Below, piece after piece: positions 4,770 to 30,546 of a DNA stretch of 45,273 bases; the stretch's first letter is position 1; every line of letters begins with the position of its first letter. This DNA is from Candidatus Moraniibacteriota bacterium (GTDB lineage: Bacteria > Patescibacteriota > Minisyncoccia > Moranbacterales > UBA9337). The translations under genes and the position numbers were made by a program. The DNA lies in contig JALSQF010000003.1 of NCBI GenBank assembly GCA_026985555.1, positions 126,605 through 171,877 of the forward strand. The letters are read 5' to 3'. The notes under the pieces are model-generated. The model made no database searches. It was not told the DNA's origin and worked only from the letters and a program-made list of their open reading frames with translations.

Positions 4770-5918
4770 ATGTTAAAAAAAATATTTTTAGCGTTAGTAA
4801 TTTTAATTGGTATAAGCGCAATCTCTTTTAATGTTGAAGCTGGAAGCAATGATAATGTTAGAGGTTGGTTATGGGCCGGAAGTGATACTAATTTTGGTTG
4901 GATAAGTACTAATAATATTACTGGTGGAGGAAATGTTAATTATGGACTTAATATTCCTGCTAATGATGGTAATGTGACAGGATATGCTTGGAGCGAAAAT
5001 TTAGGATGGATTAATTTTGAGCCTGAAGGTCCTTATCCAGCTGCTCCTAATTATAGCGTTAAAAGAGTAGGTAATAAACTGGAAGGTTGGGCTAGAATAG
5101 TGAGTATTCAAACTGCTAGTTCAATAGGTAATTCTGGCGGTTGGTTGGGTTGGATTAAAATGAGTGGGACAGTTCAAGTTGGAGGTTATTATGGAGTTAC
5201 GATTACCCCTAGTAGTGGTCAGCTAAAGGGTTATGCTTGGTCTGATGAATTAGGTTGGATTGACTTTAGTAGAGCCCAAACTAATCCGACAGTAACACAT
5301 CATTTAAATATTTGTAATATTTGTAGTAGCGGTAATCCTTTGCCAGCATTAACTATGAATATAAATGATACTAGAAATTTAAGAGCTTGTTTAGCTGATA
5401 GTGCTAGTAGTTGTTCGGGAACAGATGTAACTGCTAGTGCTAGCTGGAATGATACAAATAGTCCTCAGGATGCCGTTAGTATTCCTTCTAAAGGAACTGT
5501 TCAAGCTAATAAGGCTGGTAGTGAAAATGTAAATGTTTCATATAATGATAATGGGAATTCTCTAAGTAATAGTTTGCTAGTTAATGTATCAGATAATAGA
5601 AATTTAGTTGTTTGTGAAAATTCTTGTACAGGAGGAACATTAGTAAATACTCTTCAAATGAAAAAAGGAAATACTCAAAATTTAAAAGCTTGTTTAGTTA
5701 CTAACTCTAATAGTTGTTCGGGAATAGATGTAACTACTAGTGCTAGCTGGAATGACACAAATAATCCTCAGGATGCCGTTACTATTCCTTTTAAAGGAAC
5801 TGTTCAAGCTAATAAGGCTGGTAGTGAAAATGTAAATGTTTCATATAATGGTAAAAATACTTCTTTTACAGTTAATGTAACAGGAGGAGTAGATGACTGG
5901 AGAGAGGTAACTCCTTAA
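4770..5918 (+). CDS. Secreted surface protein with GW-type repeats and two Ig-like repeats
   Basis: A 382-residue exported protein of unknown function. Residues 1-24 form a signal peptide ending V-E-A. Residues 30-170 hold three repeats of the kind G-W-x-W-S-x-x-L-G-W-I-x-F, a module common in secreted Patescibacteria proteins. Residues 175-275 and 276-376 are two copies of a domain with N-L-R/K-A-C-L, S-C-S-G and G-T-V-Q-A-N-K-A-G-S-E-N-V-N-V-S-Y, resembling a bacterial Ig-like (Big-2) fold with paired cysteines. The copies are spaced 303 nt apart and nearly identical in DNA over about 135 nt. The protein ends in D-D-W-R-E-V-T-P, a tail shared with the protein at 19571-21592. No sortase motif or C-terminal TM is seen. 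It leads a three-gene surface island. Confidence 0.8.
   Translation: MLKKIFLALVILIGISAISFNVEAGSNDNVRGWLWAGSDTNFGWISTNNITGGGNVNYGLNIPANDGNVTGYAWSENLGWINFEPEGPYPAAPNYSVKRVGNKLEGWARIVSIQTASSIGNSGGWLGWIKMSGTVQVGGYYGVTITPSSGQLKGYAWSDELGWIDFSRAQTNPTVTHHLNICNICSSGNPLPALTMNINDTRNLRACLADSASSCSGTDVTASASWNDTNSPQDAVSIPSKGTVQANKAGSENVNVSYNDNGNSLSNSLLVNVSDNRNLVVCENSCTGGTLVNTLQMKKGNTQNLKACLVTNSNSCSGIDVTTSASWNDTNNPQDAVTIPFKGTVQANKAGSENVNVSYNGKNTSFTVNVTGGVDDWREVTP
5412..5858 (+). repeat. Intragenic direct repeat, 303-bp period
   Basis: The block from about 5421 to 5555 recurs at 5724-5858 with only a few base changes (for example GCTAGTGCTAGCTGGAATGA in one copy matches the other except in the flanks). It corresponds to the two Ig-like domains of the surface protein and indicates a fairly recent duplication. 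Confidence 0.8.
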
Positions 5919-5962: not shown

Positions 5963-6541
5963 ATGAAATTTTTAAAAAATAACATAATGACCAATAGAAA
6001 GGTTTTAGGTGTAACTATTGTAATTGTATTAATATTTATTTTGGGTTTAATAATCTTTTTAGGTTTTTTTAAGAAGGAATCTTACGAATATTATTTGTCT
6101 AAAATGAATTTAAATAGATTTAAATTTAAAAATTATAATAAAAAGATTCATAAAGAGGTTGATTTTAACAATACACCTCTTTCTGATAAAGAAAAAGAAG
6201 AAATACGCGTTCTTTTGGAAAAAGAAAAAAATAATTCAAGAAATTCAGATTTAACATCGGATCAAGAAAATGAAAATTTCAAAAAAATTGATTCAATTTT
6301 AAAGAAGAGCTTGGTTAGTAACAGACCTCTTTCTGATAAAGAAAAAGAAGAAATACGCGTTCTTTTGGAAAAAGAAAAAAATAATTCAAGAAATTCAGAT
6401 TTAACATCGGATCAAGAAAATGAAAATTTCAAAAAAATTGATTCAATTTTAAAGAAGAGCTTGGTTAGTAACAGACCTCTTTCTGATAAAGAAAAAGAAG
6501 AAATATGCGCTCTTTTGGAAGAAATTCAAAGAAACCGATAA
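5963..6541 (+). CDS. Membrane-anchored protein with perfect 50-residue tandem repeats
   Basis: A 192-residue protein that I do not recognise. Residues 13-34 form one TM helix after a short basic N-terminus, so the rest is probably outside the membrane. From residue 72 on it consists of a 50-residue unit starting P-L-S-D-K-E-K-E-E-I-R-V-L-L-E-K, present twice in full and once as a 15-residue start before a different ending. The unit is predicted to be helical and highly charged; the L-S-x-x-E-K-x-x-I-x-x-L-L pattern resembles short helical repeats found in other Patescibacteria hypothetical proteins. It lies 44 nt after one surface gene and 76 nt before another, so it is likely part of the same transcription unit. 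A stalk or spacer role is a guess. Confidence 0.7.
   Translation: MKFLKNNIMTNRKVLGVTIVIVLIFILGLIIFLGFFKKESYEYYLSKMNLNRFKFKNYNKKIHKEVDFNNTPLSDKEKEEIRVLLEKEKNNSRNSDLTSDQENENFKKIDSILKKSLVSNRPLSDKEKEEIRVLLEKEKNNSRNSDLTSDQENENFKKIDSILKKSLVSNRPLSDKEKEEICALLEEIQRNR
6176..6519 (+). repeat. Perfect 150-bp tandem repeat, 2.3 copies
   Basis: Units at 6176-6325 and 6326-6475 are identical base for base as far as I can read. A third copy starts at 6476 and diverges after about 30 nt, near TATGCGCTC, keeping partial identity to about 6519. The length is a multiple of three, so the frame is kept. This is expected to vary in copy number between strains and could be miscounted in short-read assemblies. Confidence 0.92.
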
Positions 6542-6617
6542 AAAATATTATTAATAAGATATAGTGTAATTGAATTTAAAATAAATAATAATTAATTTAA
6601 TTTAATAAACTAAAACT

Positions 6618-7521: not shown

Positions 7522-7555
7522 AAAACCAACCTTTTGGCGAGGTTGGTTTTTAAAA
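7522..7555 (+). terminator. Intrinsic terminator of surface island 1
   Basis: Stem AAAACCAACC (7522-7531) with GGTTGGTTTT (7541-7550), loop TTTTGGCGA, and a T at 7551 after the stem's own T run. This is a classical rho-independent terminator. The half palindrome of the dispersed element begins at 7553, directly abutting it. Confidence 0.9.
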
Positions 7556-7765
7556 TGGATATTTAAATAGCCAGAAGGAAAAATACTTTTTAAAAATTTA
7601 AAAATATTTTTTGAATTTAAACTTATTGGTTTAAAAATATATAAAATATTTAGAAAATAGAATTAGAAAAAACTATAAATTAAAGAAAAGACTATTAAAG
7701 GAAGTTAATTGTATATCATTTTTTAAAAGTTTGAATAGAGTTTTAGATGAATTTTTAAAAAAAGA
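7553..7765 (+). repeat. Dispersed intergenic element, copy 1 (half palindrome plus body)
   Basis: Positions 7553-7574 are exactly the right arm of the 44-bp palindrome core found complete at 21726-21769 and 30501-30544; the left arm is missing and the arm touches the upstream terminator. The following sequence to about 7710 aligns with 21770-21910 with few changes, and a further block at about 7719-7765 aligns with 22034-22085. The body is AT-rich and contains an open frame of about 60 codons without a convincing start (stop at about 7832), so it may be a decayed gene. It fills most of the 490-bp gap before rpsF. Confidence 0.8.
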
Positions 7766-19570: not shown

Positions 19571-21592
19571 ATGATCAATAAAAAAAGAATATTAATTTTT
19601 GACTTTTGGAAACTGTTAGCTTTATTGTTAATAATTTATACATATTTTGGAGGTGTACAATTAAAAGCTGAAGCCAGGGTTTATTTTACGGAGGGTTCGA
19701 TATCTCCTCAGTGTGGTTCTTGTGATCATCCTAATTATGATTATTTTAAAGAAGTTCATTTTGATTCTCCGTTTCAAGGGCAAATTTTTTATCCTGGTAG
19801 TCCTATACACATCAAAGGTTATATAAAAACAAATGAAAAAGCATCTTATCGTTGCAAAGTAGGGGGTAAGTGGACTTGGGGTAAAGTAACTGGTGCTTTA
19901 TTTAATATGATTTTAGGAAAAGATATAAATGGTGTTAGTAATAATGTTTCCTGTACTACCATATGGGCAACTAAGTGTACCTCTGGTTCTTATCCTCATA
20001 TAGGTATTATAAAAAGAAATGATTATGTTTTAAATTCAGGAGGAGGTAATATTCAACATGTCGGTAACGAAGAATCACATAAAAGTTCCAATGGTCGTAT
20101 ATATTTTGATAAAACTTTTACTATTCCTGTAGATTGGGCTAATAATGATAATAATTCAGAAAAAACAGATTATTTACGAATTTATCCCGTATTTTCAACT
20201 TGTAACAGTCAAGATATTGGAGTAAATATAGGTAGTTTTTATTTACCAATCAATATTAGGCCTAACAAAATTAACGGACAATGTGCTATAGGACATTATT
20301 ATTGTTTAAAAGGAAACTCTATCAATCATCATTACAATTCTTCTTCTAGTACTTATACTTGGCAATGTCAAGGAGTTAATGGAGGAACTACAGCTAGATG
20401 TGTTCAGAGATTAGCTATTAATGGTCGATGCGCCCTTATACATAATCAATGTAATAGGGGTGCTTCACGAGATATTCCTGATACATCAACCCAATGGAGA
20501 TGGCAATGTGTAGGAACAAATGGAGGTTCTAATATTACTTGTTCCGAAGATAAACCAACTTTATCTTTCACTGCTAATCCTAATCCAGTTAATTATAATA
20601 CAGCTTCTAATCTAAGATGGACAACTAGTCATGTGCAAAGTTGTTATGCTTCAGGAGCTTGGCGTGGTTGGAAAAGTAACACCGGAGGAAGCCAATCTAC
20701 AGGTCCTTTAACTTCTAGTAAAACATATTCTTTAGAATGTTGGAATTCTCAAGGAAATAGCACGGGAAGAAAAACGGTTACGGTTAATGTTAATAGAGTC
20801 AATGGTCAATGTGCTTCTAGACATAATCAATGTAATAGGGGTGCTTCTCAAGATATTCCTGATACATCAACTCAATGGAAATGGCAATGTTTAGGAACAA
20901 ATGGAGGTTCTAATATTACTTGTTCCGAAGATAAACCAACTTTATTTTTCACTGCTAATCCTAGTTCAGTTGATTATGGTAAAACTTCTAATTTAAGCTG
21001 GACGACTAGTCATGTGCAAAGTTGTTATGCTTCAGGAGATTGGCGTGGTTGGAAAAGTAACACCGGAGGAAGCCAATCTACAGATTCTTTAACTTCTAGT
21101 AAAACATATTCTTTAGAATGTTGGAATTCTCAAGGAGATAGCACGGGAAGAAAAACGGTTACGGTTAATGTTAATGCAGTCAATGGTGAGTGTAATAATG
21201 AGGATGCAAAAACTTATGATTGTCATGCTACAAGTTTTACCAAAGGAATATTTTGTAATAAAGGAACTCCAAACCCAACTAAACCAATCTTTCCTAATAA
21301 AGGAACTTCTACTACTTGGCAATGCTTAGGATTAAATGGAGGTAATAATGATACTTGTACAGCTTCTGTGCAAGCAATAACTAGTGGTAAATGTGGTTCA
21401 GCTAACGGACAAAGTTTTTATACTAGACCAACTTCAAATTTGTGTAATAATGGTACGCCTTCCACTTTAAATTATAATAGTAACACTTCTAAATGGACAT
21501 GGACATGTTCTGGCAATTGCAAAACTTCCGTTAACTGTTCAGCTAACAAAAAAGAACAAAAAACTGAAGACTGGACAGAAGTAGCCCCTTAA
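19571..21592 (+). CDS. Large cysteine-rich secreted repeat protein
   Basis: A 673-residue exported protein. A signal segment (about 12-36) ends near L-K-A-E-A. Residues 37-235 form a unique domain with several cysteines. From about 235 on the protein is made of two alternating modules: a short cysteine module N-G-x-C-A-x-x-H-x-x-C ... W-x-W-Q-C-x-G-x-N-G-G ... C, and an Ig-like module L-x-F-T-A-N-P-x-x-V-x-Y ... L-x-W-T-T-S-H-V-Q-S-C-Y-A-S-G. The pair is duplicated with a period of 127 residues at near-identical DNA sequence. The protein ends E-D-W-T-E-V-A-P, the same tail type as the protein at 4770-5918. Such cysteine modules recur in secreted Patescibacteria proteins; adhesion is a guess. 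A strong terminator follows. Confidence 0.8.
   Translation: MINKKRILIFDFWKLLALLLIIYTYFGGVQLKAEARVYFTEGSISPQCGSCDHPNYDYFKEVHFDSPFQGQIFYPGSPIHIKGYIKTNEKASYRCKVGGKWTWGKVTGALFNMILGKDINGVSNNVSCTTIWATKCTSGSYPHIGIIKRNDYVLNSGGGNIQHVGNEESHKSSNGRIYFDKTFTIPVDWANNDNNSEKTDYLRIYPVFSTCNSQDIGVNIGSFYLPINIRPNKINGQCAIGHYYCLKGNSINHHYNSSSSTYTWQCQGVNGGTTARCVQRLAINGRCALIHNQCNRGASRDIPDTSTQWRWQCVGTNGGSNITCSEDKPTLSFTANPNPVNYNTASNLRWTTSHVQSCYASGAWRGWKSNTGGSQSTGPLTSSKTYSLECWNSQGNSTGRKTVTVNVNRVNGQCASRHNQCNRGASQDIPDTSTQWKWQCLGTNGGSNITCSEDKPTLFFTANPSSVDYGKTSNLSWTTSHVQSCYASGDWRGWKSNTGGSQSTDSLTSSKTYSLECWNSQGDSTGRKTVTVNVNAVNGECNNEDAKTYDCHATSFTKGIFCNKGTPNPTKPIFPNKGTSTTWQCLGLNGGNNDTCTASVQAITSGKCGSANGQSFYTRPTSNLCNNGTPSTLNYNSNTSKWTWTCSGNCKTSVNCSANKKEQKTEDWTEVAP
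20420..21181 (+). repeat. Intragenic direct repeat, 381-bp period
   Basis: Unit 20420-20800 is followed directly by 20801-21181, with mostly single-base differences (for example GCTTGGCGTGGTTGG versus GATTGGCGTGGTTGG). A third unit begins at 21182 with AATGGTGAGTG and then diverges. Each unit encodes one cysteine module and one Ig-like module. Confidence 0.9.
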
Positions 21593-21723: not shown

Positions 21724-22085
21724 TTCTGGCTATTTAAATATCCATTTAAATGGATATTTAAATAGCCAGAAGGAAAAATAGGTTTTGAAAAATTTAAAAA
21801 TATTTTTGAATTTAAACTTGTTGGTTAAAAAATATATAAAATATTTAGAAAATAGAATTAGAAAAAACTATAAATTGAAAAAATCATTAAAGAAAGTTAG
21901 TTATATATCACTTACAATTTATAAAACCTTTAACTTAATTGAATTCAAAAAATTAGTTTAATAATTAAATAAAAACAACAAAAACATTAAAAAACTTTAA
22001 TTAAAAATGAAAAAACAATTAAAAGGTAGCTCTGTTTTTAAAAAATTTGAAAGGGTTTTAGATGAAAGAATTCTTTAAAAAGCTC
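21724..22085 (+). repeat. Dispersed intergenic element, copy 2 (complete palindrome plus body)
   Basis: Positions 21724-21771 are a perfect 48-bp palindrome whose arm begins TTCTGGCTATTTAAATATCC. The right side continues with a body to about 21910 that matches copy 1 (7575-7710). After about 120 nt of sequence absent from copy 1, homology returns at about 22034-22085. Nothing else is recognised in this 626-bp gap apart from the terminator before it, a 23-codon remnant and the promoter of the next gene. Confidence 0.85.
22007..22078 (+). pseudogene. Possible gene remnant inside element copy 2
   Basis: A 23-codon frame starting ATGAAAAAACAATTAAAAGG encodes a peptide ending S-S-V-F-K-K-F-E-R-V-L-D-E-R-I-L and stops with TAA. 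The related stretch in copy 1 (about 7719-7750) encodes F-F-K-S-L-N-R-V-L-D-E in an open frame. The shared R-V-L-D-E suggests that both derive from the 5' part of a former gene, but the match is short and could reflect conserved DNA rather than protein. Confidence 0.3.
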
Positions 22086-30498: not shown

Positions 30499-30546
30499 TT
30501 CTGGCTATTTAAATATCCATTTAAATGGATATTTAAATAGCCAGAA
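30499..30546. repeat. Dispersed intergenic element, copy 3 (48-bp palindrome)
   Basis: A perfect 48-bp palindrome identical to that at 21724-21771, arm start TTCTGGCTATTTAAATATCC. Downstream sequence to about 30580 shares TATTTTT, TTTAAACTTA and TTTAAA blocks with copies 1 and 2 in the same order, but shorter, so the body appears deleted. It lies in the divergent promoter gap between def and tpiA. Confidence 0.9.

Follow-up and report, generated by a model that had tools for sequence, protein, structure and literature searches.

Results

Palindromes in the Window

We have analyzed 45,273 nucleotides of DNA from a Candidatus Moraniibacteriota bacterium, a stretch that we call the window. It contains two complete copies of a 48-bp perfect palindrome. 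That at 21724-21771 has three ATTTAAAT cores in 12-bp phase, and that at 30499-30546 lies between the genes for peptide deformylase (− strand) and triosephosphate isomerase (+ strand). An exact right half of the palindrome is found at 7553-7576, with terminator-like sequence in place of the left half. None of the three is assigned to a strand. Both identical full copies had been reported in an earlier note on this DNA and are recovered here; the half copy it described is also present, with an extent of 24 nt rather than the 22 nt (7553-7574) originally given.

The 20-nt arm occurs five times in the window, compared with 0.03 occurrences expected from shuffled sequences, and the base composition predicts about 2 × 10⁻⁷ perfect 48-bp palindromes in the genome. 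The palindrome is therefore not a product of chance. Its predicted fold is a hairpin of −30.2 kcal/mol (z = −11), in agreement with the hairpin-forming potential noted earlier.

The window also contains internal duplications in long ORFs, at 20420-21100, 5355-5854, and 6165-6614, with units of 300, 197, and 150 nt, respectively. The first is inside a 673-aa ORF at 19571-21592 that has no Pfam match, and the other two are just upstream of a Peptidase_S74 chaperone gene.

A Modular Family in the Host Genome

The assembly of the host genome (G000) comprises 741 kb in 11 contigs, is 95% complete, and has a GC content of 28%. A search of the whole genome for the arm, as the earlier note had proposed, revealed further copies. 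There are 39 exact arms plus one with a mismatch, and the element family has 25 copies: 15 perfect palindromes of 48 bp, eight of 36 bp, one of a 24-bp type (at C11:23775, with a 1-nt deletion), and the half copy of the window. The design is modular with a period of 12 bp, reading TTCTGGCT-ATTTAAAT-ATCC-ATTTAAAT-GGAT-ATTTAAAT-AGCCAGAA. The 36-mers are perfect palindromes from which exactly one 12-bp unit is missing, with a 4-nt loop (three have ATCC, five GGAT). Not a single arm substitution is found across the 23 full copies, an unbroken identity that may reflect recent copying or constraint. The genome also contains an inverted pair of 311-bp sequences of 100% identity (C10:178499-178809 and C10:229022-229332).

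Although ~84% of the sequence is coding or rRNA, the 23 full-length copies all lie clear of predicted genes and ORFs of at least 80 aa; two overlap short ORFs only (63-69 aa), which are probably spurious. This bears out the earlier description of the element as dispersed and intergenic. From ORF calls, the neighboring genes are tandem for 13 copies, divergent for seven, and convergent for three, a make-up close to that of all intergenic DNA. Thus the proximity to a terminator or divergent promoters that the earlier note had remarked upon holds for the copies in the window, but not as a general rule. The copies are spread over the contigs in proportion to length, with no clustering along them (p = 0.50).

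Genes with a copy upstream include those for 16S rRNA and 23S rRNA, tuf, gyrA, and tpi among others, tuf and gyrA being named by eye from the sequence. The 16S (C7:71870-73370) and 23S-5S (C3:112585-115899) rRNA genes are on separate contigs and appear unlinked; the palindrome is 659 bp upstream of the former and 536 bp upstream of the latter. A −10-like box is found within 26 nt on 10 of the 46 sides of dispersed copies, which is below the expected 20.9. The best promoter matches nearby mostly lie past the palindrome, at a distance of 20-120 bp or more, and there is no constant distance from palindrome to promoter. The dispersed copies in the host genome do not, then, overlap or abut promoters in the manner of operators.

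The Flanking Sequences

Without exception, a pyrimidine adjoins the left end of the palindrome and a purine the right end (46 of 46, read outward); at the next position out, a purine is found in 40 of 46. Uninterrupted complementarity runs outward beyond the palindrome more than in permutations, at 44 bp compared with 22 bp (p = 4 × 10⁻⁴); if G-U pairs are counted, the signal is not raised over chance.

A right flank is common to three or four copies, but the left flank is not. The right flank at 7577-7725 (+ strand) is homologous (about 83%-90%) to that following position 21771 and to that of the copy at C7:71211. The flank at 21772-21920 (+ strand) is identical over its first 65 nt to that of C7:71211, upstream of the 16S rRNA gene, and the two then diverge, remaining homologous with indels. 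The flanks beginning at 7577 and 21772 differ at ~10% of positions. An unchanged palindrome beside homologous flanks that have diverged has thus varied less than the sequence around it, and at least once the neighboring DNA appears to have been copied together with the palindrome, by a putative mechanism considered in the Discussion. The recent spread proposed in the earlier note is still compatible with these data, but is complicated by the divergence of the flanks.

Comparison with Mobile Elements and RNA Families

The earlier note had likened the element to REP or MITE sequences, and in forming short intergenic palindromes in many copies (25) it does resemble REP/REPIN elements. We looked for target-site duplications, as had been suggested there, and found none: direct duplications of 2-9 bp are no commoner than in permutations. 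The companion search for a transposase, which covered the Y1 (HUH) REP-associated family, gave no PF01797 match in the host genome, although the same search matches 5 of 14 control genomes. With neither a target-site duplication nor a Y1 transposase, membership of either class is not supported. REP/RAYT was rejected on the missing Y1 gene; against a DDE-type MITE stands the missing target-site duplication of constant length. There is no Rfam match in the window, and no copy in viral contigs. A general collection of genome contigs yielded two isolated look-alikes only, from Moellerella and Clostridium.

The Core and Layout in Related Genomes

We compared 54 relatives, all from genera other than that of the host. 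The outer arm alone is absent from these apart from scattered matches with a single mismatch. However, a palindrome scan found the core ATTTAAAT-ATCC-ATTTAAAT-GGAT-ATTTAAAT in G007, a genome of the same family (genus g8), and a search with the core pattern found it in G007 and in G051 (family f4), which represent two genera of the order besides that of the host. A class-wide sample of 383 genomes, in which these two are not included, contained no further genome with the core. The arrays of G007 tolerate changes in the spacers, whereas every position is identical between the copies in the host genome. In G001 there is a 48-mer of identical 8-8-4-8-4-8-8 layout but other spelling, TTCGGGAC GTAAGTAC GGAC GTACTTAC GTCC GTACTTAC GTCCCGAA, with about eight loci of this type detected by pattern search. 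Thus the arm, for which the earlier note knew of no family, is not wholly private: its core is present in other genera, and across the order its 12-bp architecture goes with AbrB-like genes, as described below.

Other repeats were observed in these genomes. Dispersed copies in G007 (L151, L154, and L157) have in common a longer flank with palindromes of the CTAGGACGGTCCTAG type and the motif AAATTATTGGGAAGTG. G001 has another repeated near-perfect hairpin, TTAAACGGCCAAATCAAT...ATTGATTTGGCCGTTTAA, at L101:1571 and L099:10539 (42 and 41 nt).

Arrays beside AbrB-like Genes

In G007 and G051, which belong to different families, an array lies a few tens of bases before the same small gene, whose product is an AbrB/MazE-family (PF04014) protein of 57-60 aa, and arrays with the ATTTAAAT/ATCC core are found next to PF04014 genes in G007, G051, and G055. 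These proteins belong to a multi-copy family of 54-62 aa with the AbrB/MazE fold, found in 62 of 120 genomes across the order with up to 10 in a single genome; no relative of the family in the PDB was found by sequence.

The association was examined in the 100 bp upstream of 30 AbrB-like loci. The mean self-match at period 12 is 13.5 of 20, compared with 8.8-10.4 at the other periods between 7 and 19. A period-12 match of at least 15 of 20 was found in 12 of the 30 regions, but in just 4 of 600 control genes (Fisher, 2 × 10⁻¹⁴), and palindromes with an arm of 10 or more in 11 of the 30 compared with 16 of the 600 (3 × 10⁻⁹). Most gene-linked arrays begin some 30-70 bp ahead of the start codon, and a TATAAT-like box often immediately precedes them; of 22 AbrB-like loci, 11 have such a box no more than 26 nt to the 5′ side of the array, compared with 5.3 expected. 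From this position we infer that the gene-linked array is an autorepressor operator. Many of the loci have a same-strand gene of varied kind closely 3′.

In a small set of loci, the spelling of the array appears to track the subtype of the protein. SKRGGSY proteins go with GGATATTTAAAT, NG(S/T)Y with GGTCATTAA, SIGLTLP with TTACGTAA, and NGDSY with CAGTATTTAAAT.

Gene-linked arrays also share sequence with dispersed ones. In G056 three dispersed intergenic copies match exactly the 36-mer that precedes an AbrB-like gene, with 36-38 exact bp shared. In the host genome the AbrB-like gene is preceded by a second type of array, of which a 36-bp stretch is found again at C10:215300. The exact sequence common to the two kinds of array reaches 33 bp in G051, 25 bp in G001, and 24 bp in G007. 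With such sharing in five genomes, over 22-38 exact bp, the presence of AbrB-linked arrays at dispersed sites is recurrent. Judged by its sequence, the palindrome of the window is built like one AbrB-linked array type and has the same core.

The host genome has a single PF04014 gene, at C10:83743, and this is preceded by a different type of array, ATTAAAGGGGTC. No second or degenerate AbrB-like gene was found in six frames of the assembly, in which the two short contigs C5 and C9 read as N and ~5% of the genome is perhaps missing, and there is no cognate PF04014 gene beside any host copy of the palindrome. The partner of the 48-mer array may have been lost, or may be unassembled or masked; alternatively, the protein encoded at C10:83743 may serve both types of array. 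The ATTAAAGGGGTC direct repeats themselves form a second dispersed 12-bp family in this genome (C10:9335, 36569, 83683, and 215300; C6:284), one copy being directly upstream of the sole AbrB-like gene.

Discussion

On balance we lean, by little, toward the view that the palindrome serves the AbrB-like regulator family as a dispersed binding array, from which a function in the host genome would follow by inference. Dimers of a small AbrB-like protein would bind the 12-bp-phased ATTTAAAT cores cooperatively, the bound unit comprising ATTTAAAT cores parted by GGAT/ATCC and closed by GGCT/AGCC. An array beside its own gene would be an autorepressor operator, and dispersed copies would be further binding sites, with an organizing or insulating role rather than one of blocking promoters. 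Palindrome-anchored copying or conversion could have multiplied the copies, and loss of 12-bp units between the ATTTAAAT repeats could have generated the 36- and 24-bp forms.

Three observations fit poorly. That the single AbrB-like gene of the host carries a ATTAAAGGGGTC array counts against the AbrB-array reading, as does the location of the dispersed copies outside operator position, and predicted binding alone does not explain total identity when G007 tolerates spacer changes. These misfits of partner gene, position, and identity are the reason that our preference is so slight, and that autonomous spreading is its main rival. The palindrome might be a non-autonomous repeat with no present function, propagated by template switching on itself, by gene conversion or by a now-lost transposase, and persisting in harmless intergenic DNA. 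The exact identity of 23 copies, their location away from promoters, and the absence of a partner gene of the right subtype would all be expected of such a repeat, as would flanks common on the right but not the left and the 65-nt identical tract adjoining the palindrome. Yet neither a Y1-family transposase nor a target-site duplication is found, the palindrome is unchanged where homologous flanks have diverged, and the same array architecture is repeatedly linked to AbrB-like genes elsewhere, so that we consider this origin unlikely.

The remaining alternatives concern other levels of function. A transcribed hairpin acting as a bidirectional terminator or RNase III processing site would account for the very stable fold (−30.2 kcal/mol), the T-tracts after some copies, and the pairing that extends outward past the palindrome. 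We nevertheless think it quite improbable: the 3′ ends of genes are not enriched (three convergent and seven divergent of 23), several copies come after a separate conventional terminator, counting G-U pairs adds nothing over chance to the outward pairing, and Rfam offers no match. About equally improbable is a site acting on the scale of the chromosome, in segregation or in the nucleoid, to which a protein with no relation to AbrB would bind. Twenty-five exactly conserved copies over the main contigs are consistent with such a site, but they show no clustering on the contigs (p = 0.50), and the modular core is linked elsewhere to AbrB-like genes.

Several known systems resemble the AbrB-linked arrays in part. 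MraZ operators are direct repeats upstream of mraZ. They too involve an AbrB-fold protein with repeated sites, and one G007 array is upstream of mraZ; however, the repeat sequence and period differ, and mraZ of the host genome has no such palindrome upstream. Swapped-hairpin proteins of the SpoVT/AbrB and MazE types (PF04014) share the autorepressor style of gene-linked arrays upstream, often just 3′ of a −10-like box. Here, by contrast, the proteins are solo, of 54-62 aa, with no recognized adjacent toxin, and the arrays are palindromic, 12-bp-phased, and dispersed away from promoters as well.

REP/REPIN sequences with their RAYT (TnpA-REP) partners (PMC3116915, PMC2817692, PMC8266576) are likewise short dispersed intergenic palindromes, and several genomes here pair the palindromes with a gene carrying the same palindromes. 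The paired gene, however, encodes a small DNA-binding protein rather than a Y1 transposase, insertion duplications are absent, and the perfect 48-bp symmetry and 12-bp modules are peculiar to the present elements. We entertain, as a tentative proposal that is somewhat doubtful, a REP-RAYT-like partnership without a transposase, in which a solo AbrB-like protein and its own scattered 12-bp arrays would change together, array with subtype, from genome to genome. The dispersed arrays would then be chromosome-organizing or titration sites, or multiplying repeats derived from operators.

In the literature searched, outside which most subscription journals lay, we found nothing on AbrB from Patescibacteria/CPR, nothing on palindromes of this kind in them, and no description of 12-bp-phased palindromic arrays together with their dispersal. 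If our reading is correct, these proteins would constitute a regulatory family that is common among bacteria with very small genomes yet apparently undescribed, and a readable code would lead from protein subtype to operator sequence. As many array-protein pairs are available in one order, the binding specificity is directly testable. The palindromes themselves would represent a class of dispersed bacterial repeats derived from operators, not from transposase ends.
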